Positions 44,010 to 56,425 of a DNA stretch of 56,425 nucleotides are shown in pieces. Under the pieces are notes generated by a model. That model saw nothing but the letters and a program-made list of their open reading frames with translations. It had not been told where the DNA came from and ran no database searches. The DNA lies in NCBI GenBank assembly GCA_035279405.1, contig DATEHU010000048.1, positions 1 to 56,425 of the forward strand. The letters are read 5' to 3'. Source of the DNA: Gammaproteobacteria bacterium. GTDB taxonomy: Bacteria > Pseudomonadota > Gammaproteobacteria > Natronospirales > REEB76. Position numbers and translations under genes: made by a program. Numbering within the stretch: position 1 is the stretch's first letter; every line of letters begins with the position of its first letter.

Positions 44010-45308
<1,299 letters not shown>

Positions 45309-45486
45309 AGTGCCCGGCCACGATCGCCAGTACGACCGGGGCAGCATCAAGACTGGTTGCGAAATCGGCTTCGCCCGCTGCTTCTGGAAGACGAATCGGA
45401 TGCCGGCCCTGGAGAGAAATCTGCGCTGGCTTCATGAGGCTCAAATAGATATCGGAGAGCCTACTGGATGAGGTTATCGGCGCCCC

Positions 45487-45588
45487 GCTAAAGCCAACCT
45501 TTAGCACTGGCGCAAACCTTGCTCTTAGTAAAGCTAGTCTTTACTATGGATCTAACCTGGGGATCATAGTAAAGGCACTGTTTACATG
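45487..45588 (+). promoter_or_regulatory. Triple operator-like array before fic
   Basis: Three inverted repeats share TAAAG half-sites and 5-base spacers: GCTAAAG-N5-CTTTAGC (45487-45505), TAGTAAAG-N5-CTTTACTA (45526-45546) and TAGTAAAG-N5-GTTTACAT (45567-45587, right half degenerate). Their centres (45496, 45536, 45577) are 40 and 41 bases apart, close to four helical turns. The third overlaps the fic start codon, suggesting repression of fic, perhaps by its own C-terminal winged-helix. Confidence 0.6.
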
Positions 45589-46752
45589 TCCGGAACCGCC
45601 TCACTAAACCGTGCCGGTCGCTATTTGCGCCAACCTTCGGGTTATCAGGCGTTCATTCCGGCACCGTTACCGCCGATTCCACCGGTGCGACTCGAAGGCA
45701 AACTTCAAGACCAATTGTCGCAGGCCGACCGGGCGCTCGGTCGGCTGGACGGATCCATCCAGACGCTGCCCAACCCTGATCTTTTCGTGTTCATGTACGT
45801 GCGCAAGGAAGCGGTGCTATCCAGCCAGATCGAAGGCACCCAGAGTTCCTTGCAGGATGTGCTGGCCGCCGAGGCCCGCATCCTGTCGTCGGAGCGACCG
45901 CAGGACGTGGACGAAGTCATCAACTACGTAAGCGCAATGAACCATGGTTTGAAACGCCTCGCCGAGCTGCCGGTGTCCGTGCGCCTGTTCCGCGAGATTC
46001 ACGCCAAACTCCTCCACGGCGTGCGCGGCTCGCGTCTTGCGCCCGGTGAGCTGCGCACCACCCAGAATTGGATCGGGCCGGGCGGTTGCACCCTTAAAGA
46101 GGCTGCCTTTGTGCCGCCACCACCAGCGGATGTGCCGCAGGCTTTGAGCGATCTGGAACAGTTCCTGCACCGGAACGCGGATTTGCCGTTGCTCATCAAG
46201 ATCGGCCTGGTGCATGCCCAGTTCGAAACCATCCATCCGTTTCTGGACGGCAACGGCCGCATCGGGCGGCTGCTCATCACCTTCCTGCTTTGCGATCGTA
46301 AGGTACTGGGCAAGCCGGTGTTGTACCTGTCTCATTACTTCAAACGCTATCGTCAGCAATATTACGACCTGCTGCAAGCGATTCGCGACACCGGCGACTG
46401 GGAAAGTTGGCTCGCGTTTTTCCTGCGTGGCATCACCGACGTAAGCCACCAGGCCACCGAAACCGCGCGTCGCATCCTCGCCCTGCGTGAGGAACACCGC
46501 GCACGCATCACTCATCATTTGGGGCGTGCCTCCGGCAACGGCCACAAGGTGCTCGAGCGTTTGTACCAAATGCCTATCATGTCCGTGGCCGATGTGCGTA
46601 AAATCACCGGTACCACCAATCCCGCCGCCAATGAATTGGTGCGCAAGTTTGTCGAGCAAGGAATTCTTGCGGAATATACCGGCCAGAGACGTAATCGGAA
46701 ATTCCGCTATCAGACCTACATCGAGCTATTCAGCGGGGACGCGGACCGGTGA
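45586..46752 (+). CDS. Fic family protein (class II) with C-terminal wHTH
   Basis: Fic enzymes usually transfer AMP from ATP to a target hydroxyl. The 388-residue protein has the full active motif HPFLDGNGRIGR (residues 207-218) and an N-terminal inhibitory helix SSQIEG (79-84) whose Glu blocks ATP binding, the class II arrangement. A Fic_N-type region precedes it and a winged-helix-like C-terminus (~330-380; SVADVRKITGTTNPAANELV) follows. Stand-alone proteins of this form occur in mobile regions; targets are mostly unknown. It is first in the island after purA, with an operator-like array overlapping its ATG. Confidence 0.9.
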   Translation: MSGTASLNRAGRYLRQPSGYQAFIPAPLPPIPPVRLEGKLQDQLSQADRALGRLDGSIQTLPNPDLFVFMYVRKEAVLSSQIEGTQSSLQDVLAAEARILSSERPQDVDEVINYVSAMNHGLKRLAELPVSVRLFREIHAKLLHGVRGSRLAPGELRTTQNWIGPGGCTLKEAAFVPPPPADVPQALSDLEQFLHRNADLPLLIKIGLVHAQFETIHPFLDGNGRIGRLLITFLLCDRKVLGKPVLYLSHYFKRYRQQYYDLLQAIRDTGDWESWLAFFLRGITDVSHQATETARRILALREEHRARITHHLGRASGNGHKVLERLYQMPIMSVADVRKITGTTNPAANELVRKFVEQGILAEYTGQRRNRKFRYQTYIELFSGDADR

Positions 46753-46834
46753 TCAGTGGGCCAAAATCATGGGGGATGCCAGTGTGCCGTGATTTGGCGA
46801 TACGCGACGTGACGCCACCGGTGGGGCAGACTAG

Positions 46835-47155
46835 GTGACTACGTTCAACGAAGATTCCCGGGTCAAGACCCCCGCTCTGTTGCATCTTACGCGGCTGGGA
46901 TATCCGTGTCTGTCGCTGAAAGGGGCTTGCCGGGATTTGCGCAACGACATTTTCCTGGAAATTTTTGAATCCGCCCTGTTACGCGTCAATTCAGACTTGC
47001 GCCGCCTCAACAATGAGCACAACGAAGAAACAGGCGAGTACTGCAGGTCGGGCGACGGCACCGCGCTCGGCAACCGCATTACCGAGGTGCACAACGGCAG
47101 CACGCTCTTCGCCGGCAACGCCGGTCGCGACAAAAAACAACATTGGGTGGCTTAA
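46835..47155 (+). pseudogene. Truncated N-terminus of a second type I HsdR
   Basis: A 106-residue frame starting at GTG 46835. The first ~50 residues (TTFNEDSRVKTPALLHLTRLGY onward, cited in part) resemble the conserved opening of a different HsdR subfamily than the intact hsdR next door. The similarity fades near codon 55 (about 47000). The rest is Arg/Asn/Gly-rich and looks non-coding. No other part of that R subunit remains. Probably a scar of replacement or deletion of an earlier restriction gene. The subfamily resemblance is from memory. Confidence 0.55.
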
Positions 47156-47185
47156 TCACTTGAGCGACTGCAGGGGAGGGGTGTG

Positions 47186-50100
47186 ATGGAAATTCGCGAA
47201 GCTACCATCGAGCAGGAACTGATCGAAAAGCTCGGTGAGTTCAAGTACACGCTGCGCCCGGACATCCGCGACCGCGCGGCCATGGAGCGCAACTTCCGTG
47301 AGCACTTCGAAGCGCTGAATCGCGTCACCCTGACCGATGCCGAGTTCCAGCGGCTGCTGGAAGAGATCGTCACCCCCGACGTGTTCAAGGCCGCGCATAC
47401 GCTGCGCAACCGCAACGCCTTCACCCGCGACGACGGCACGCCGCTCAACTACACGCTGGTGAATATCAACGATTGGTGCAAGAACAGCTTCGAGGTCGCC
47501 CACCAGTTGCGCATCAACACCGACTACAGCTATCACCAGTACGATGTCGTGCTGCTGATCAACGGCGTGCCCGTGGTGCAGATCGAGCTCAAGACGCTAG
47601 GCATCAACCCGCGCCGCGCCATCGAGCAGGTCGTCGAATACAAGAACGACCCCGGCAATGGCTACACGCGCACGCTGCTGTGCTTCATCCAGTTGTTCAT
47701 CGTGAGCAATCGCGATTCCACTTTCTACTTCGCCAACAACAACGCGCGGCATTTCGCCTTCAATGCCGAGGAGCGCTACCTGCCGGTCTACCAGTACGCC
47801 CGGCCGGACAACAGCAAGATCAACGGCATGCATGCCTTCGCCGAGGCCTTTCTCGCCAAGTGCACGCTGGGCCAGATGATCAGCCGCTACATGGTGCTGG
47901 TGCAAAGCGAGCAGAAGCTCCTGATGATGCGGCCGTACCAGATCTATGCCGTAGAGTACATCGTCAAATGCATCGACGAGAACCGCGGCAACGGCTACAT
48001 CTGGCATACCACCGGCAGCGGCAAGACGCTCACGAGTTTCAAGGCTTCCTCCCTGCTCAAGGCCAACCCGGCCATCGAGAAGTGTCTGTTCGTGGTGGAC
48101 CGCAAGGACCTGGATCGCCAGACCCGCGAGGAGTTCAACCGCTTCCAGGAAGGCTGCGTGGAGGAGAACACCAACACCGGCGCGCTGGTGCGCCGCATGC
48201 TGTCCGATGACGCCGCCGACAAGGTCATCGTCTGCACCATCCAGAAGCTCGGCCTCGCGCTCGATGAAAACAGCAAGCGCAACCAGAGCCGCGGAAAGCG
48301 CGGCCTCGCCACCTACACCGACCAGCTCGCGCCGCTGCGTGATAAGCGCATCGTCTTTATCTTCGACGAATGCCACCGCTCGCAGTTCGGCGACAATCAC
48401 CGGGCCATAAAGGAGTTCTTTCCCAAGGCCCAGCTCTTCGGCTTCACCGGCACGCCGATCTTCGAGCAGAACGCCAGCTACAAGCGCATCGAGGGCGACA
48501 CGCAGACGCTCAGGACCACCGAAGATCTCTTTCAGAAGTCGTTACACGAATACACCATCACCCACGCCATCGAAGACCGGAACGTCCTGCGCTTCCACGT
48601 CGAGTACTACAAGCCCGACGGCAAGCACCCGCCGAAGCCCGGCGAGCCGCTGGCCAAGCGCGCCGTGGTCGAGGCCATCCTCGCCAAGCACGACGCCGCC
48701 ACCGGCGGGCGCCGCTTCAACGCCCTGCTCGCCACCGCGTCCATCAACGACGCCATCGAGTACTACCGGATTTTCGAGAAAGCGCAGGCCGAGAAGCAGC
48801 AGGCCGACCCGCACTACCTGCCGCTCAACGTCGGTGCCGTGTTCTCCCCGCCGGCCGACATCAGCGCTGATGTGAAGCAACTGCAGGAAGACCTGCCGCA
48901 GGAGCAGGAAGACAACCGGCACGACCCGGAAGCCAAGAAGGCCGCCCTCAAGGCCATCATCGCCGACTACAACGCGCGCTTCGGCACCAACCACCGCATC
49001 GAAGACTTTGATCTCTACTATCAGGACGTGCAGGATCGCATCAAGAAGCAGCAATTCCCCAATGCCGATCTGCCGATGAAAGGCCGCGAGAAGCTCGACA
49101 TCGTGATCGTGGTGGACATGCTGCTCACCGGCTTCGACAGCCAATACCTGAACACCCTGTACGTGGACAAGAACCTCAAACACCACGGGCTGATCCAGGC
49201 CTTCAGCCGCACCAACCGCGTGCTCAACGACACCAAGCCCTACGGCAACATCCTCGACTTCCGCGGCCAGCAAAAGGAGGTGGATGCCGCCATCGCGTTG
49301 TTCTCCGGCGCCAGGGCCGATCGGGCGCGCGAGATCTGGCTGGTGGACACCGCGCCGGTGGTGATCGACAAGCTCAAGACGGCGCGCGAGAACCTCGACA
49401 GCTTCATGCAGTCGCAGGGCCTCACCGGGAAACCCGAAGATATCGCCAACCTCAAGGGCGACGACGCCCGCGCCGCCTTCGTGAAGTGTTTCAAGGACGT
49501 GCAGAAGCTCAAGGTCCAGCTCGACCAGTACACCGACCTCACGCCTAAGCAGGCCCAGGCCATTGACAGCATCGTGCCCAGGGACGAGCTCAACGCCTTT
49601 CGCGGCGCGTATCTGGAAACCGCTCAGCGCCTGCGTACGCAGCAGAGCAGGCCCGGCGAGGCCAAGAACGAGAACCTGGACCAGCTCGATTTCGAGTTCG
49701 TGCTGTTCGCCTCCGCCACCATTGATTACGACTACATTATGAAGCTCATCGCCGACTTCTCGGCAATGAAGCCCGGCAAGGCCACGATGAGTCGCGAGCA
49801 GCTGATCGGCTTGATCGCGGCCGATTCCAAGTTCATGGACGAACGCGAGGACATCACCGAATACGTGCGTGGCCTGAAGGTCGGCGAGGGTCTGGGCGAA
49901 GACGCCATCCGTGCCGGTTACCTGCGGTTCAAGCAGGCCAAGGCCGCGCGCGAGCTAGTTGCCGTTTCGGAAAAGCACGGCCTGTCGATCAAAGCGTTGC
50001 AGGCTTTAGTCGATGCGGTCCTCGCCCGCCGCATATTCGATGGCGAACAGCTCACAGAACTGCTTGCGCCACTCGATCTGGGCTGGAAAGCGCGCACGCA

Positions 50101-50194
50101 GAAGGAGCTCGCATTGATGGGCGATCTGCTGCCGCTGCTCAAGAAGCGCGCTGGTGGGCGCGAGATCGCCGGGCTCAAGGCGTACGAGGATTGA
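47186..50194 (+). CDS. hsdR: Type I restriction enzyme R subunit
   Basis: Motor-nuclease subunit that translocates and cuts unmodified DNA. Of 1002 residues, the N-terminal part has a PD-(D/E)xK nuclease (YDVVLLINGVPVVQIELKTLG in pieces: Asp near 114 and ELK near 128). The SF2 motor follows with WHTTGSGKT (near 273), DECHRSQFG (near 393) and GFTGTP, then a helical C-terminus that contacts the methylase. ATG 47186 follows GGGGAGGG by 5 bases. The stop overlaps hsdS (TGATG). The R-first order is unusual. Confidence 0.95.
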   Translation: MEIREATIEQELIEKLGEFKYTLRPDIRDRAAMERNFREHFEALNRVTLTDAEFQRLLEEIVTPDVFKAAHTLRNRNAFTRDDGTPLNYTLVNINDWCKNSFEVAHQLRINTDYSYHQYDVVLLINGVPVVQIELKTLGINPRRAIEQVVEYKNDPGNGYTRTLLCFIQLFIVSNRDSTFYFANNNARHFAFNAEERYLPVYQYARPDNSKINGMHAFAEAFLAKCTLGQMISRYMVLVQSEQKLLMMRPYQIYAVEYIVKCIDENRGNGYIWHTTGSGKTLTSFKASSLLKANPAIEKCLFVVDRKDLDRQTREEFNRFQEGCVEENTNTGALVRRMLSDDAADKVIVCTIQKLGLALDENSKRNQSRGKRGLATYTDQLAPLRDKRIVFIFDECHRSQFGDNHRAIKEFFPKAQLFGFTGTPIFEQNASYKRIEGDTQTLRTTEDLFQKSLHEYTITHAIEDRNVLRFHVEYYKPDGKHPPKPGEPLAKRAVVEAILAKHDAATGGRRFNALLATASINDAIEYYRIFEKAQAEKQQADPHYLPLNVGAVFSPPADISADVKQLQEDLPQEQEDNRHDPEAKKAALKAIIADYNARFGTNHRIEDFDLYYQDVQDRIKKQQFPNADLPMKGREKLDIVIVVDMLLTGFDSQYLNTLYVDKNLKHHGLIQAFSRTNRVLNDTKPYGNILDFRGQQKEVDAAIALFSGARADRAREIWLVDTAPVVIDKLKTARENLDSFMQSQGLTGKPEDIANLKGDDARAAFVKCFKDVQKLKVQLDQYTDLTPKQAQAIDSIVPRDELNAFRGAYLETAQRLRTQQSRPGEAKNENLDQLDFEFVLFASATIDYDYIMKLIADFSAMKPGKATMSREQLIGLIAADSKFMDEREDITEYVRGLKVGEGLGEDAIRAGYLRFKQAKAARELVAVSEKHGLSIKALQALVDAVLARRIFDGEQLTELLAPLDLGWKARTQKELALMGDLLPLLKKRAGGREIAGLKAYED

Positions 50195-51375
50195 TGATGG
50201 CGAAGCGGAGCACAACGACGGCGACGCCGAGGTTGCGGTTTCCGGAGTTTCGGAATCAAGCTGGTTTCGAACCTACTCCGCTTGGTCGCGCCTTTCGCCG
50301 GATAACGAATGGAAAGGCTAACGCACAAGACCACGAGGAGGGCGGCGCTTTCCCGCTCTTCGATCGTTCTGAAGTCATAAAGGCATCAAGCAAGTTTGCT
50401 TTTGATGCCGTGGCCGTGATTCTGCCCGGTGAAGGGATGTCGTTTAGGCCTCGCTACTTTGAGGGGAAGTTCGATCTTCATCAGCGTGCGTACGCACTGA
50501 TGCAATGCCAAGGTCAAGGGAAGTATTTCTACTACGCGCTGGATAGGATGAAGGCCGATCTCGCGCTCAAGGCTGTCAAGTCGACTGTCCTTTCTCTGCG
50601 CTTGCCGATCATCGAGAAGTTCGTCGTATTCGCGCCGTCCAACAACGCCGAGCAACAAAAAATCGCCGACTGCCTGACGTCGCTGGACGAGGTGATTGAC
50701 GCGCAGGGGCGGAAGGTGGAGGCGTTGAAGGCGCACAAACGCGGCCTGATGCAGCAGCTTTTCCCCCGCGAAGGCGAAACCCGCCCCCGCCTCCGCTTCC
50801 CCGAGTTCCGCGATGCGCCGGATTGGTCTAACAGGCTTCTCGGAGAGGCGGCGACGTTCTACAACGGACGCGCGTACGCAAAGGAAGAGCTTCTTGAGCG
50901 CGGAAAGTATCGAGTCCTACGAGTAGGAAATTTCTTCACTAATGATCACTGGTATTACTCCGACCTAGAGCTAGAAGATTCGAAATATTGTGATGATGGA
51001 GATCTTCTTTACGCATGGTCGGCATCGTTTGGGCCGCGCATGTGGCACGGTGGCAAGACGATCTATCACTATCACATCTGGAAGGTCGTCGAGAATAAAA
51101 AGATTGACAGGGCGTTTCTCTTCTATCGCCTGAGTTCGGAAACTGAGCAAATGAGGGCGAAGGCCGCTAATGGAATAGGCATGTTCCATATCACTAAGGG
51201 AACAATCGAAAATTGGGCGAGCAGTTTTCCAGAAATTGGTGAACAACAACGCATCGCCGACTGCCTCTCCTCCCTCGACACCCAGATCACCGCCGAAACC
51301 AACCAACTCGCCGCCCTCAAGACCCACAAGCAAGGCCTGATGCAGCAGCTGTTCCCCGCACCGGAGAGCGACTGA
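50194..51375 (+). CDS. hsdS: Type I restriction specificity subunit S
   Basis: Determines the bipartite DNA target of the R-M complex. The 393-residue protein has two target-recognition domains (about residues 20-150 and 205-345). Each is followed by a conserved helical spacer ending in KAHKRGLMQQLFP (near 190) and KTHKQGLMQQLFP (near 385), the internal repeat expected of HsdS. The second recognition domain (about 50830-51230) is visibly AT-richer than its flanks, a sign of exchange. Its start overlaps the hsdR stop. It is followed 2 bases later by prrC. Confidence 0.93.
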   Translation: MMAKRSTTTATPRLRFPEFRNQAGFEPTPLGRAFRRITNGKANAQDHEEGGAFPLFDRSEVIKASSKFAFDAVAVILPGEGMSFRPRYFEGKFDLHQRAYALMQCQGQGKYFYYALDRMKADLALKAVKSTVLSLRLPIIEKFVVFAPSNNAEQQKIADCLTSLDEVIDAQGRKVEALKAHKRGLMQQLFPREGETRPRLRFPEFRDAPDWSNRLLGEAATFYNGRAYAKEELLERGKYRVLRVGNFFTNDHWYYSDLELEDSKYCDDGDLLYAWSASFGPRMWHGGKTIYHYHIWKVVENKKIDRAFLFYRLSSETEQMRAKAANGIGMFHITKGTIENWASSFPEIGEQQRIADCLSSLDTQITAETNQLAALKTHKQGLMQQLFPAPESD

Positions 51376-51377
51376 GT

Positions 51378-52505
51378 ATGGACGCCTTGCCATTCTCTGA
51401 TCTCCCTTCGCTCGCGCAGCGTTTTCGCGAGGAACTGGAGAAAAAGAGGTTCGTCCTGCTATACGCCTACAACGGCACGGGCAAGACGCGGCTGTCTACC
51501 GCGTTCAAGGACCTGGGCAAGAAGGTCGATGAGAACGGCGAGGTAACCGAGCGCGACACACTCTACTTCAACGCGTTCACCGAAGATTTGTTTCAGTGGG
51601 ACAATGATCTCGCCAACGACCGCGAGCGCGTGCTGAAAATCAACCAGGATTCCCGTTTCTTCGCCGGACTGGCTGAACTGGAGATGGATAATCGTATCCG
51701 CCCGTTACTTAATCGCTATGCCGACTTCGACTTCCGCATAGACACCTCTGAGTGGAAAGTGCGCTTCTCGCGTGAGGTTGTAAGAGGCGATAGCATGACG
51801 ATGGTTGAAGGTATCAAGGTTTCACGTGGTGAGGAGAACATCTTCATCTGGTGTTTCTTCCTCGCCATCGTGCAACTGGTGCTCGACGGCGCCGAGGCCT
51901 ACAAGTGGGTGAAGTACGTCTACATCGACGATCCGGTCTCATCGCTGGACGAGCACAACGCTATCACTGTCGCGAACCACATTGCGCAGATGCTGCTCAA
52001 GGCGGGCGGCAGCGCGCCGCCGACTGTGATCTCGTCGCATCACACGCTTTTTTTCAATGTGCTGGGCAACGAGTTCAGGAAGAAAGCGAAGAAGCACCTG
52101 TTGTGTCGGAACATGGTCGGTGGCGGTTATCTGCTCCACGACACGGGCAACACGCCGTTCTTTCAGCACGTTTCCAACCTCGCCGAGCTGGAAGAGGCGC
52201 AGAAGAGCGGCAAGCTCTACACGCATCACTTCAACATGCTGCGCTCGATCATGGAAAAGACGGCCAGCTTTCACGGCTATGCGAATTTCGGCGACTGCGT
52301 GCGCTCGAGCGACGAGGATGCGGACAAGACGCTGCACACACGCGTGGTCAACATCATGAGCCACGGCAATTACTCGCTCTATGAGCCGATCGAGATGCTC
52401 GACGAGAACAAGGCCCTGTTTCGCGCGATTCTCGAAGACTTCCGAAAGACTTTCCCGTTCAACCGCAACCCGTTCAATCAGGACCAGAAGGCGGATACCG
52501 AATGA
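51378..52505 (+). CDS. prrC: PrrC-type anticodon nuclease
   Basis: Homologue of E. coli PrrC, a latent tRNA-Lys anticodon nuclease kept silent by its type I R-M partner and released when phage inhibits restriction. The N-domain is an ABC-type NTPase: Walker A YNGTGKT (31-37), the PrrC hallmark FNAFTEDLFQWDNDL (64-78), signature KVSRGEE (147-153), Walker B YIDDPVSSLDE (182-192) and H-loop His221. The C-domain keeps the catalytic triad: Arg289 and Glu293 (R-x3-E within LRSIMEKTASF) and His329 (NIMSH), matching E. coli Arg320, Glu324 and His356. At 375 residues it is slightly shorter than E. coli PrrC (396). It overlaps hsdM by 4 bases. Confidence 0.92.
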   Translation: MDALPFSDLPSLAQRFREELEKKRFVLLYAYNGTGKTRLSTAFKDLGKKVDENGEVTERDTLYFNAFTEDLFQWDNDLANDRERVLKINQDSRFFAGLAELEMDNRIRPLLNRYADFDFRIDTSEWKVRFSREVVRGDSMTMVEGIKVSRGEENIFIWCFFLAIVQLVLDGAEAYKWVKYVYIDDPVSSLDEHNAITVANHIAQMLLKAGGSAPPTVISSHHTLFFNVLGNEFRKKAKKHLLCRNMVGGGYLLHDTGNTPFFQHVSNLAELEEAQKSGKLYTHHFNMLRSIMEKTASFHGYANFGDCVRSSDEDADKTLHTRVVNIMSHGNYSLYEPIEMLDENKALFRAILEDFRKTFPFNRNPFNQDQKADTE

Positions 52506-54136
52506 CCGAAAACGACCAGAAACAACTCGGCAAGACGCTCTGGAACATCGCCGACCAGTTGCGTGGCGCAATGAATGCCGACGACTTCCGCGACTACATG
52601 CTGTCGTTCCTGTTCCTGCGCTACCTCTCGGACAACTACGAGGCGGCGGCGAAGAAGGAACTGGGGCCGGATTATCCCGACGCCGATGCGATCGGCAACG
52701 GCGGCAAGACGCCGCTATCGGTCTGGTACGCGAAAAACTCCGGCGACGTGGCGCAGTTCGAGCAGCAGATGCGGCGCAAGGCGCACTACGTCATCAAGCC
52801 GGACTTCCTCTGGAACCACATCGTGCATCTGGCAAAGACGCAGCACGACGAGCTGTTGAACACCTTGCAGAAAGGTTTCAAGTACATCGAGGAAGAATCC
52901 TTCCAGAGCAAGTTCCAGGGGCTGTTCTCGGAGATCAACCTCGCTTCGGACAAGTTGGGCAAGAAATACGCCGACCGCAACGCCAAGCTCTGCGCCATCA
53001 TCAGCGAGATCGCGCGCGGCATGGCGCTGTTTTCCACCGACAGCGACACGCTGGGCGATGCTTACGAATACCTGATCGGCCAGTTCGCGGCCGGTTCCGG
53101 CAAGAAGGCGGGCGAGTTCTACACGCCGCAACAGATTTCCAACATCCTCTCGGCGCTCGTCACGCTGGACAGCCAGGAGCCGAAGGAGGGTTTGCGCCGG
53201 TCGCTTGCCAGCGTCTTCGATTTCGCCTGCGGTTCAGGCTCATTGCTGCTAAACGTGCGCCACCGCATGATCGAAGCGGGCGGCACCATCGGCCGCATCT
53301 ACGGCCAGGAATCGAACATCACCACCTACAACCTGGCGCGCATGAACATGCTGCTGCACGGGGTCAAGGACACCGAGTTCGAGATCTGGCACGGCGACAC
53401 ACTCAAGAACGACTGGGACTGGTTGCGCGAGACCAACCCGGCGAAGAAGCCGCAGTTCGACGCGGTGGTGGCCAATCCGCCTTTCAGCTACCGCTGGGAG
53501 CCGAATGATGCGATGGCTGAGGACATGCGTTTCAAGAATCACGGTATGGCGCCAAAAAGCGCGGCCGATTTTGCCTTCCTGCTGCACGGCCTGCATTACC
53601 TGAAGGACGATGGCGTGATGGCCATCATCCTGCCGCACGGCGTGCTGTTCCGTGGCGGCAAGGAGGCGGACATCCGCATCAAGCTGCTGAAGGACGGCCA
53701 CATAGACACGGTGATTGGGCTACCGCCGAACCTGTTTTATTCGACTGGCATTCCGGTCTGCATCCTGGTGCTGAAGAAGTGTAAGAAGCCTGACGATGTG
53801 CTGTTCATCAACGCCGCCGAGCATTTTGTGAAGGGCAAGCGCCAGAACCACCTGTCCGATGAGGACATCGAGCGGATCGTTTCGACCTACCGGGAGCGCA
53901 CGGAGCGGGAGCGTTTTTCGCGCCGTGTGCCGCTCAGGGACATCATCGCCAACGACTACAACCTCAACATCTCGCGCTACGTGAGCACGGCCGAGGCCGA
54001 GAAGGAGATTGATCTCGCGGCCACCCATGCCGAGCTCGTCAGAATTGAAGACGAAATCCGCACAGCAACGAAAAGACACAATGAATTTCTGAAAGAGCTT
54101 GGGCTGGCGCCATTGCCACCGGGTGAGCGTGACTAG
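52502..54136 (+). CDS. hsdM: Type I restriction methylase M subunit
   Basis: Adenine-N6 methyltransferase protecting host target sites and forming the core of the R-M complex. The 544 residues include the N-terminal HsdM_N helical domain (FLFLRYLSDNYE near 38), S-adenosylmethionine motif I DFACGSGSLL (near 240), catalytic NPPF (near 325) and a C-terminal helix pair (AEKEIDLAATHAELVRIEDE). ATG 52502 overlaps the prrC stop (ATGA), so nuclease and methylase are translationally coupled. Confidence 0.95.
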   Translation: MTENDQKQLGKTLWNIADQLRGAMNADDFRDYMLSFLFLRYLSDNYEAAAKKELGPDYPDADAIGNGGKTPLSVWYAKNSGDVAQFEQQMRRKAHYVIKPDFLWNHIVHLAKTQHDELLNTLQKGFKYIEEESFQSKFQGLFSEINLASDKLGKKYADRNAKLCAIISEIARGMALFSTDSDTLGDAYEYLIGQFAAGSGKKAGEFYTPQQISNILSALVTLDSQEPKEGLRRSLASVFDFACGSGSLLLNVRHRMIEAGGTIGRIYGQESNITTYNLARMNMLLHGVKDTEFEIWHGDTLKNDWDWLRETNPAKKPQFDAVVANPPFSYRWEPNDAMAEDMRFKNHGMAPKSAADFAFLLHGLHYLKDDGVMAIILPHGVLFRGGKEADIRIKLLKDGHIDTVIGLPPNLFYSTGIPVCILVLKKCKKPDDVLFINAAEHFVKGKRQNHLSDEDIERIVSTYRERTERERFSRRVPLRDIIANDYNLNISRYVSTAEAEKEIDLAATHAELVRIEDEIRTATKRHNEFLKELGLAPLPPGERD

Positions 54137-54429
54137 GCGAGGAGTTGTCGTAAGTCTGCGTGCTCGCAGGGATGCAGGCAGAGGCGCTGGCTCGGGAATG
54201 GGAAGGGTTGTTCCGGCATCCGGCGTTGGGACGCGACACGCGTTTCAACTCGCCCTACCACCGCCCGCTGGATCTCGCGCGGCAACGGTTGATGCCTTCA
54301 ACAAACATCGCTCCTTTCCGCAGCCGTCGGCACGCGGCGTGCATTGAACAGTCTGCTTGCCTCTCAAACGCCGAGGATTCTTCGTTCCGCCGGAGACCTG
54401 TGCGACAAGCCCATCCGCGGCGTCTCCTT
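54137..54429. other. Gene-free spacer downstream of hsdM
   Basis: About 290 bases with no recognisable gene. A frame from 54160 runs into the neighbouring MITE-like element and resembles no family I know, so it is not called. No terminator with a T-run is visible after hsdM. Confidence 0.4.
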
Positions 54430-54568
54430 CTAAGAGCACCTAACAAAATGAACCCCGTGACAAATCCCCCCGCGCGCAGAGCGCTCCGCCCCCCTTTGCA
54501 AAGGGGGGTGAGGGGGGGATTTCGGTTTGCCGGAGGCCATCACCGCACATTTTGTTAGACACTCTAAG
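54430..54568. mobile_element. MITE-like palindromic element
   Basis: Terminal inverted repeats CTAACAAAATG (54440-54450) and CATTTTGTTAG (54548-54558) are perfect over 11 bases. They continue imperfectly outward to about 21 bases (CTAAGAGCAC versus CTTAGAGTGT). The interior holds AAATCCCCCC/GGGGGGATTT and a central CCCCCCTTTGCAAAGGGGGG palindrome. There is no coding capacity. Non-autonomous elements of this kind are moved by transposases elsewhere in the genome. Confidence 0.6.
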
Positions 54569-54585
54569 GTTCTGATACGACCGAA

Positions 54586-54645
54586 CGTATAAAGTTAAAA
54601 TATACGACGTAACGTATATTGTATTTATATACGCTGTAGCGTATA
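54586..54645 (+). promoter_or_regulatory. HipB operator array
   Basis: Five half-sites alternate in orientation: CGTATA (54586), TATACG (54601), CGTATA (54613), TATACG (54628), CGTATA (54640). Gaps are 9, 6, 9 and 6 bases. Read as operators, TATAC-N8-GTATA occurs twice (54601-54618 and 54628-54645), with centres 27 bases apart. E. coli HipB binds TATCC-N8-GGATA, the same geometry with two changed positions, so HipB autorepression is likely. Confidence 0.75.
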
Positions 54646-54670
54646 AGTACCTGACACTTGGAGTTGTCCC

Positions 54671-54925
54671 ATGGCCGAGCAAATCGCCCGAACGCCTAAA
54701 CAGATCGGTGATGCTGTACGCCGCCACCGCCGCGCGCTGGGAATAAACCAAAACGATGTGGGCACAAAGACACACCTGCGGCAAGCCACGATTTCCGAAC
54801 TGGAAGCCGGGGAGGCGGGCACTCAGCTCCGTACACTCTTCGGGGTGCTCACGGCGCTTAACCTGGAACTGGTCGTCCGGCCGCGGACTAAAGCCTCGAC
54901 GGACAAGATCGAGGAAATGTTCTGA
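54671..54925 (+). CDS. hipB: Antitoxin and repressor HipB
   Basis: Cro/CI-type helix-turn-helix protein that binds HipA and represses the operon. The 84 residues include the HTH (DAVRRHRRALGINQNDVG then LRQATISELEAGE, residues ~14-48) and the C-terminal beta-strand LNLELVVRPR that dimerises HipB. GGAG lies 7 bases before ATG. The stop shares a base with the hipA start, so the pair is coupled. Confidence 0.93.
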   Translation: MAEQIARTPKQIGDAVRRHRRALGINQNDVGTKTHLRQATISELEAGEAGTQLRTLFGVLTALNLELVVRPRTKASTDKIEEMF

Positions 54926-56259
54926 TGGCACGGCAGCGCACACGCGTCCCGCTGAATGTTTTCCTGAACAGTCGCCTGGTCGGTCGCCTGCAACGTCAAT
55001 CGAGCGGGGCCATTGATTTCCAGTATGACCGCAACTGGCTCGACTGGGAGCATGCTTCTCCGGTTTCCCTCTCCCTGCCGCTGCGTGAGGACCGGTTCAT
55101 CGGCGATCCGGTCATTGCGGTGTTCGACAACCTGCTGCCGGACAACGATCAAATCCGCCGCCGCCTGGCCGAGCGGGTGGGAGCCGCCGGCAAGGATGCT
55201 TATAGCCTGCTTGCTGCCGTCGGCCGTGATTGCGTCGGCGCACTTCAGTTCCTACCCGATGGCGAAGAACCGGATCCGGCGGGCGGTATCTCGGCGCGTC
55301 CCCTGAGCGACACGGAAATCGCCGGTATCCTTGGCGACCTGAAACGCACCCCCTTGGGTGTGGATGAAAGCGGGGAATTCCGCATTTCTCTGGCCGGAGC
55401 GCAGGAAAAGACCGCACTGCTCTACTGGCAGGACAAATGGCAAATGCCTCACGGCACCACCGCGACGACGCACATCCTCAAGCCGGAGATCGGCAAACTG
55501 CCGAACGGAATTGATCTCACACAGAGTATCGAGAATGAACATCTGTGCATGCGTTTGATGACCGCATTCGGCTTGCCGGCGGCCAAGACGCAGATGCTGG
55601 AATTCAGTGGCAAACGCGCGCTGGTGGTCGAGCGGTTTGATCGGCACTGGGCGTTAGACGGCCGGCTGCTGCGGCTTCCGCAGGAGGATTGCTGCCAGGC
55701 GCTCTCTGTGCCGCCAACGCGTAAATATGAGTCCGAGGGTGGGCCCGGTATCCGCCAAGTGCTTGATCTGCTGAAAGCAAGTGATGAGCCTGACAAAGAT
55801 CAAAGACTGTTTCTCAAGGCTCAAATTGTATTTTGGTTGTTGGGAGCAACCGACGGTCACGCCAAGAATTTCAGTATTTATCTTTTTTCTGGCGGCAGAT
55901 TCCACCTCACGCCGCTCTACGATGTCATGTCCGCGCAACCCAATGTGGACGCAGGGCAGATTCAGCACAATCGCATGAAGTTTGCGATGGCGGTCGGCGA
56001 CAGGCGCTATTACACGGTGAACTCAATTATGCCGCGTCACTTCCTACAGACGGTGGTACGGTGCGGCCTCTCGGGTGAATTCGCCCAGGGCATTCTGGAT
56101 GAAATTCTTGCGGGCGTGGATAGCGCGATTGACGCTGCTCTCGCTGGCTTGCCCGCGGGATTTCCGGAGAGCGTCAGCGCATCCATAACCGACGGCATTC
56201 GCGCGCGTCTTCAGTTGATTGCCCAAGAAAAGACCATTGGGCGAGGCGCGGCTCAATGA
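54925..56259 (+). CDS. hipA: Serine/threonine kinase toxin HipA
   Basis: HipA of E. coli phosphorylates glutamyl-tRNA synthetase, causing growth arrest and persistence. The 444 residues closely follow E. coli HipA (440). The autophosphorylated serine is Ser155 in FRISLAGAQEKT, the catalytic Asp is D310 in GATDGHAKNFSI, and the metal-binding Asp is D333 in LYDVMSA. VVERFDRHW and the LPQEDCCQ...KYESEGGPG stretch are conserved. All key residues are present, so it is probably active. Confidence 0.95.
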   Translation: MARQRTRVPLNVFLNSRLVGRLQRQSSGAIDFQYDRNWLDWEHASPVSLSLPLREDRFIGDPVIAVFDNLLPDNDQIRRRLAERVGAAGKDAYSLLAAVGRDCVGALQFLPDGEEPDPAGGISARPLSDTEIAGILGDLKRTPLGVDESGEFRISLAGAQEKTALLYWQDKWQMPHGTTATTHILKPEIGKLPNGIDLTQSIENEHLCMRLMTAFGLPAAKTQMLEFSGKRALVVERFDRHWALDGRLLRLPQEDCCQALSVPPTRKYESEGGPGIRQVLDLLKASDEPDKDQRLFLKAQIVFWLLGATDGHAKNFSIYLFSGGRFHLTPLYDVMSAQPNVDAGQIQHNRMKFAMAVGDRRYYTVNSIMPRHFLQTVVRCGLSGEFAQGILDEILAGVDSAIDAALAGLPAGFPESVSASITDGIRARLQLIAQEKTIGRGAAQ

Positions 56260-56263
56260 GTAT

Positions 56264-56294
56264 GAAGTGTTTGAGCTGGTGCCTAGGAGAGGGT
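56264..56294. repeat. Duplicated tRNA-Leu 3' end (att-like), copy 1
   Basis: The 26 bases at 56264-56289, starting GAAGTGTTTGAG and ending GGTGCCTAGGAG, recur with two mismatches at 56400-56425. The right part is the 3' end of a tRNA (CCA complement TGG followed by acceptor bases). Copy 1 continues AGAGGG, then departs from tRNA sequence. It begins 5 bases after the hipA stop. This is the signature of an attachment-site duplication left by integration at a tRNA gene. Confidence 0.6.
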
Positions 56295-56310
56295 GAGAGC
56301 GGTGTCTTTA

Positions 56311-56390
56311 TTGCCATGCCAGTGGCATGGCAATCCGCTCGAACGGGTGAACATGGATGTTCACCCTGGACAGCCTACCAAGGACGGTAC
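56311..56390 (-). repeat. Dispersed NGGA-loop hairpin element, copy B
   Basis: Two adjacent perfect hairpins: TTGCCATGCC/GGCATGGCAA (56311-56333, loop AGT) and GGGTGAACA-TGGA-TGTTCACCC (56345-56366). A tail ending ACCAAGGACGGTAC (56377-56390) follows. The second hairpin plus tail aligns without gaps with the element at 24795-24857. It lies 22 bases beyond the 3' end of the tRNA at the window edge. Confidence 0.65.
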
Positions 56391-56412
56391 TGCGAGCGAG
56401 AAGTGTTTGAGT

Positions 56413-56425
56413 TGGTGCCCAGGAG
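56413..56425 (-). tRNA. tRNA 3' end, probably tRNA-Leu (partial)
   Basis: The last 13 bases read, on the minus strand, CTCCTGGGCACCA: acceptor strand CCTGGGC, discriminator A and encoded CCA. This matches the 3' end of gammaproteobacterial tRNA-Leu genes beginning GCCCAGG. The rest lies beyond the window, so the isotype is inferred. Confidence 0.6.

Follow-up and report, generated by a model that had tools for sequence, protein, structure and literature searches.

PrrC anticodon nucleases have been characterized in a few bacteria. PrrC170 from Klebsiella quasipneumoniae, which was cloned as HsdR, HsdS, PrrC and HsdM, blocks T1 and T7, causes growth arrest when overexpressed, targets and depletes tRNA-Lys and is overcome by phage tRNA-Lys; it is ~35% identical to EcoPrrC (PMC11555353). 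In Escherichia coli PrrC, Asp287 contacts the modified wobble base, and the substitutions D287N/Q/H lessen the cleavage of normally modified tRNA-Lys and reverse the penalty for hypomodification (PMC3014915). The PrrCs of Haemophilus influenzae and Streptococcus mutans have also been reported to be active, and the substrates of PrrCs are expected to vary (PMC3014915). RloC, by comparison, is a protein of 658–897 aa that is rarely embedded in an hsd operon (PMC2610378).

In the window, the whole stretch of 56,425 nt that was analyzed, the genes hsdR-hsdS-prrC-hsdM follow one another in this order, all neighbors overlapping or nearly abutting (Table 1). The start of hsdS overlaps the end of hsdR, only 2 nt separate the hsdS stop from the prrC ATG, and an ATGA overlap is common to prrC and hsdM. 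The prrC reading frame starts with ATG, contains no internal stop and is full length, with GGAGAG ~10 nt upstream of its start. The restriction-modification (R-M) operon around prrC is intact, as the R, S and M subunits all carry their motifs: HsdR retains the nuclease ExK of HSDR_N in IELK (residue 134), GSGKT (278) and DECH (395) of the SF2 motor and the EcoR124-type C-terminus, and HsdM retains FACGSGS (241) and NPPF (325). A sequence-only reading had proposed that a PrrC anticodon nuclease is embedded here in a type I R-M operon, and the gene order together with the EcoR124_C domain of HsdR bears out the embedding.

Table 1. Features of the hsd-prrC operon and of the PrrC protein, with positions in the window
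Feature	Position	Strand	Evidence
hsdR, type I restriction subunit, 1003 aa	47183..50194	+	Pfam EcoR124_C, T1R_D3-like, SWI2_SNF2, HSDR_N; PADLOC REase_I, 1087 bits
hsdS, specificity subunit, 394 aa, two target-recognition domains	50191..51375	+	Pfam Methylase_S, 2 stretches; PADLOC Specificity_I
prrC, ABC-ATPase/HEPN anticodon nuclease, 375 aa	51378..52505	+	PADLOC PrrC; alignment with E. coli PrrC; AlphaFold2 model
PrrC box FNAFTEDLFQWDNDL, residues 64-78	51567..51611	+	Conservation in 62-sequence alignment
N258 codon, aligned with E. coli Asp287	52149..52151	+	Alignment; Asp287 function from PMC3014915
C-terminal ACNase (HEPN-type) domain, residues 259-366, with R289, E293, R322, H329 (Rx6H)	52152..52475	+	Invariant residues; four-helix model; weak HEPN structural neighbors
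hsdM, N6-adenine methyltransferase subunit, 544 aa	52502..54136	+	Pfam N6_Mtase, HsdM_N; TIGR00497 hsdM over cut-off

The PADLOC PrrC model PDLC02360 matches the prrC product with 446 bits (E = 2.1e-134, profile positions 20–357 of 372), and tblastn matches between it and plasmid PrrCs reach ~450 bits; Pfam yields only a weak AAA_13 match, and no NCBIfam model matches. As the E. coli reference we used a 396-aa plasmid protein annotated as 'anticodon nuclease' and encoded in an hsdM-hsdS-prrC-hsdR operon, which stands in for the original CTr5X entry and in which K46, D287, H295, R320, E324 and H356 fall at their published numbers. In the MAFFT alignment, R289, E293 and H329 share columns with Arg320, Glu324 and His356, and all 114 homologues keep these three residues as well as H264, the equivalent of His295. 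The triad is thus intact at exactly the residues named beforehand, and the R-x3-E and His, whose failure to superimpose on the PrrC ACNase domain had been named as grounds for refutation, do superimpose. R322 of the HEPN-type Rx6H motif (R322-x6-H329) is kept in all but two of the 114 homologues. The full ABC-type NTPase core that had been claimed was recovered as well, with Walker A (K36), the signature, Walker B and D-loop (D184 D185..D191) and the H-switch (H221) all conserved; the sole exception to their invariance over the 114 homologues is Walker K36, present in 91 of the 92 members of clade I, the clade of the window. The motif singled out as PrrC-specific, FNAFTEDLFQWDNDL, 15 residues long and located in the N-domain, aligns gap-free with YNAFTEDLFYWDNDL of E. 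coli PrrC, and N65, A66, T68–F72, W74, N76 and D77 are invariant in a 62-sequence alignment.

The profile score and the tblastn matches show a similarity beyond chance, and the gene encodes a genuine and apparently intact PrrC. RloC shares the triad and the ABC motifs with PrrC (PMC2610378), and the weak AAA_13 match would suit it too. However, the window's protein has only 375 aa and lacks a coiled-coil/zinc-hook insert, and its length, PrrC box, R-M linkage and PrrC profile score led us to reject RloC or a generic AAA_13 protein; that the gene encodes RloC or some other ABC-HEPN defence protein is exceedingly improbable.

The fold predicted for the ATPase part agrees with a PrrC. The AlphaFold2 model (pLDDT 87.8, pTM 0.77) was built on the 62-sequence alignment, which was assembled from homologue loci only. 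Its residues 5–269 resemble the ATPase heads of Rad50/SMC proteins, with a best Z of 13.1 over 220 residues (rmsd 3.4), and no coiled coil interrupts the head. The C-terminal ACNase domain, modelled alone, is predicted to be a four-helix bundle (pLDDT 81.8) in which one helix bears R289 and E293 and H329 lies just past the next long helix. HEPN chains are among the structural neighbors of this domain at Z 4–6 only (2hsb, 5.8 over 100 residues, rmsd 4.3), and a Foldseek search with it returned no match with E under 0.001. For helical bundles such scores are low, so it is published work (PMC3710099) and the Rx6H motif that carry the HEPN assignment, and what the structure search says of a HEPN fold is suggestive only. 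No solved PrrC structure was found in the PDB by sequence or profile search.

The system is an ordinary rather than a new one, belonging to a widespread anti-phage defence family that has already been experimentally tested in relatives. Across 84,980 species genomes, at least 519 relatives of the protein were found in many phyla, among them Proteobacteria, Bacillota, Verrucomicrobia, Elusimicrobia, Planctomycetes and others, with a best identity of 67% among the matches listed. A further 113 relatives are on plasmids; no PrrC was found in annotated phages at E 1e-5, although 34 homologues do occur on IMG/VR contigs. The sequence-only reading had also placed the operon in a lineage far from E. 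coli, one of its weaker points: the host PurA is 63% identical to that of E. coli, and no 16S gene was found in the 2.46-Mb host genome. Members outside E. coli are in any event usual for the family.

Wherever a neighbor is visible in the homologue loci examined, the locus is an hsd operon in which prrC adjoins hsdS, hsdM or hsdR. Exactly two gene orders occur, the R-S-C-M of the window and the canonical M-S-C-R; a seeming exception in Rhodocyclaceae UBA5602 (L018) consists of two tandem R-S-C-M operons. A FastTree tree splits the sequences in the same way (100% local support) and requires a single change of gene order, compared with a mean of 20.5 changes when orders were shuffled. Identity between the two groups is 34% for PrrC, 37% for HsdM and 34% for HsdR, and inside the window's group it is 58%, 74% and 70%, respectively. 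In the latter group the distances of HsdM and HsdR are closely correlated (Mantel r = 0.91), whereas those of PrrC track HsdM (0.51) and HsdR (0.46) only moderately, which argues that the partner can be exchanged; PrrC seems to have been swapped with greater ease than R and M. Homologous operons can hold further genes: a single hsd operon in a Halomonas MAG (L084:7190-11086) contains two different PrrC-like genes with a HEPN_LA2681/TPR gene between them, and RhuM, Schlafen AlbA_2, a TrlF-like AAA ATPase, YhcG nuclease, a DEAD helicase and Bro-N are encoded inside other hsd-prrC operons (L004, L015, L020, L026, L028, L089).

In the window, positions 45308–56425 after purA hold fic, the hsdR-hsdS-prrC-hsdM operon and hipBA, and the contig ends inside this slot. 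None of the 10 congeneric genomes contains PrrC (two other genomes were positive in a search of 95 relatives), and the operon is absent after purA in all five congeners read. In four of these, an rnr-like ORF, read as RNase R from its N-terminal sequence, lies after purA, immediately in G008 and behind intervening ORFs in G001, G005 and G006; in G007, hipBA stands at the same place with 84% DNA identity to that of the window and no R-M/PrrC operon. The block therefore fills a variable slot, most simply through horizontal gain of the operon, and the slot is likely a hotspot for defence and toxin-antitoxin genes. Directly upstream of hsdR, a SoFic-type Fic adenylyltransferase gene (45586–46752) has an intact HPFLDGNGR; Fic-like matches occur near prrC at only 4 of about 113 homologue loci, and Fic was rejected as a conserved PrrC partner.

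Since absence from 10 of 10 congeneric genomes means that the gain was recent, the operon might not be maintained, and no promoter was assigned; both would suit a decayed or silenced remnant whose nuclease is no longer active. The catalytic, Walker and HEPN residues, however, are all intact, as are the full-length reading frame and the partner subunits, and a remnant is very unlikely. We consider it highly probable instead that prrC encodes a latent anticodon nuclease of the PrrC type that is made from its own type IC-like R-M enzyme and presumably kept inactive by it. Family membership, the intact motifs, the operon, the clade and the fold of the ATPase part are the basis for this, and the mechanism is taken from characterized relatives. 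In the first layer, HsdR, HsdS and HsdM would restrict unmodified incoming DNA while PrrC rides on the Hsd complex with its ABC ATPase off. A phage product that disables the R-M enzyme would then allow NTP binding or hydrolysis to unlock the C-terminal HEPN-type domain, whose R289, E293 and H329 would cleave within the anticodon loop of a tRNA, most probably tRNA-Lys. The ensuing arrest of translation would form a second, abortive layer. The earlier suggestion of a two-layer anti-phage system is supported, as are the identity of PrrC, the operon and the intact triad. On the other side, HsdM and HsdR are only 37% and 34% identical to those of the E. coli system, so silencing through the same contacts is something that we infer, and the moderate correlation of PrrC distances with those of HsdM and HsdR also weighs against the reading.

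As PrrC170, with the same gene order, depletes tRNA-Lys, tRNA-Lys is the default expectation for the target of the window's PrrC. The host has tRNA-Lys genes with UUU and CUU anticodons, the UUU anticodon stem-loop being GCTGGCTTTTAACCAGT. That tRNA target and trigger differ from those of E. coli PrrC, as the sequence-only reading had it, is possible, and the point has been raised for PrrC orthologues generally (PMC3014915). Counting against the latent nuclease, Asn258 corresponds to a substitution that lowers the cleavage of fully modified tRNA-Lys in E. coli PrrC (PMC3014915); an altered preference for the wobble base is conceivable. Asp occupies this position in 21 of 22 sequences of the canonical clade versus 50 of 92 in the window's clade, and the 9-member subclade of the window (among 115 sequences; 94% local support) is limited to N, G, S or A there.

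It could therefore be speculated that the same enzyme prefers tRNA-Lys with a hypomodified or cmnm5-type U34, or another tRNA. Besides the D287N/Q/H behavior of E. coli PrrC (PMC3014915) and the residues of the subclade, the host would fit this idea, as it has MnmA and no MnmC oxidase domain above the cut-off (best 37 vs 174 bits). Over 75 host genomes, K, N or Q at the Asp287 position was found only in hosts without MnmC (16 of 50 vs 0 of 25; Fisher p = 7e-4, for a class picked after seeing the data). However, the tree traces these residues to about three origins, so that the events are not independent and the association is not significant once relatedness is counted; the restriction is a lead, not a result. 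Moreover, for Asp no association with MnmC in the host was seen (13 of 25 with MnmC vs 23 of 50 without, p = 0.63), and we rejected the idea that the identity of this residue tracks MnmC. The column of N258 also adjoins a 2-residue gap, and bacteria without MnmC can form mnm5 through other enzymes. A shifted preference of the window's enzyme is thus doubtful though conceivable, and it seems unlikely that the window's PrrC, as a member of the Asp-less subclade in a host without recognizable MnmC, has re-tuned its target to another tRNA or to a tRNA-Lys whose U34 is modified in a different way (cmnm5s2U or hypomodified). A separate subclade (L052, L054, L064, L071, L075, L076, L080, L083 and L085), whose hosts include Bacillota and spirochaetes, has Lys at the position; this reverses the charge and might favor a wobble base with a carboxymethylaminomethyl group.

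The locus represents one more restriction system with a backup that stops translation, and its value is comparative, as two PrrC clades have strictly different operon orders. Because the residue that reads the target hardly changes in one clade but varies freely in the other, the tRNA specificity of PrrC can be tested by a one-residue swap. What the locus adds is the change of Asp287 to Asn, with its Asp-less 9-member subclade, and an operon in the purA-rnr slot that is absent in congeners.

Among known systems, the closest is PrrC170, which shares with the window the gene order and the ABC ATPase joined to an ACNase, and whose identity to EcoPrrC is as in the window's clade; we group it with this clade on gene order and identity. 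A K. quasipneumoniae plasmid homologue is 63% identical to the window's PrrC but has Asp in place of Asn258, and in the plasmid homologues, unlike in the window, two further genes separate hsdR from hsdS. EcoprrI/PrrC (PMC3014915, PMC2610378) resembles the window in its ABC motifs, PrrC box, Arg-Glu-His triad and His295, equivalent to H264, and in the position of prrC, which follows hsdS immediately within a type I R-M operon; it differs in its M-S-C-R order, its separate clade, an identity of only 34% and Asp287. RloC has the ABC ATPase and an Arg-x3-Glu...His ACNase triad in common with the window's PrrC, which is half its size, has neither coiled coil nor zinc hook, and is linked to an R-M system.
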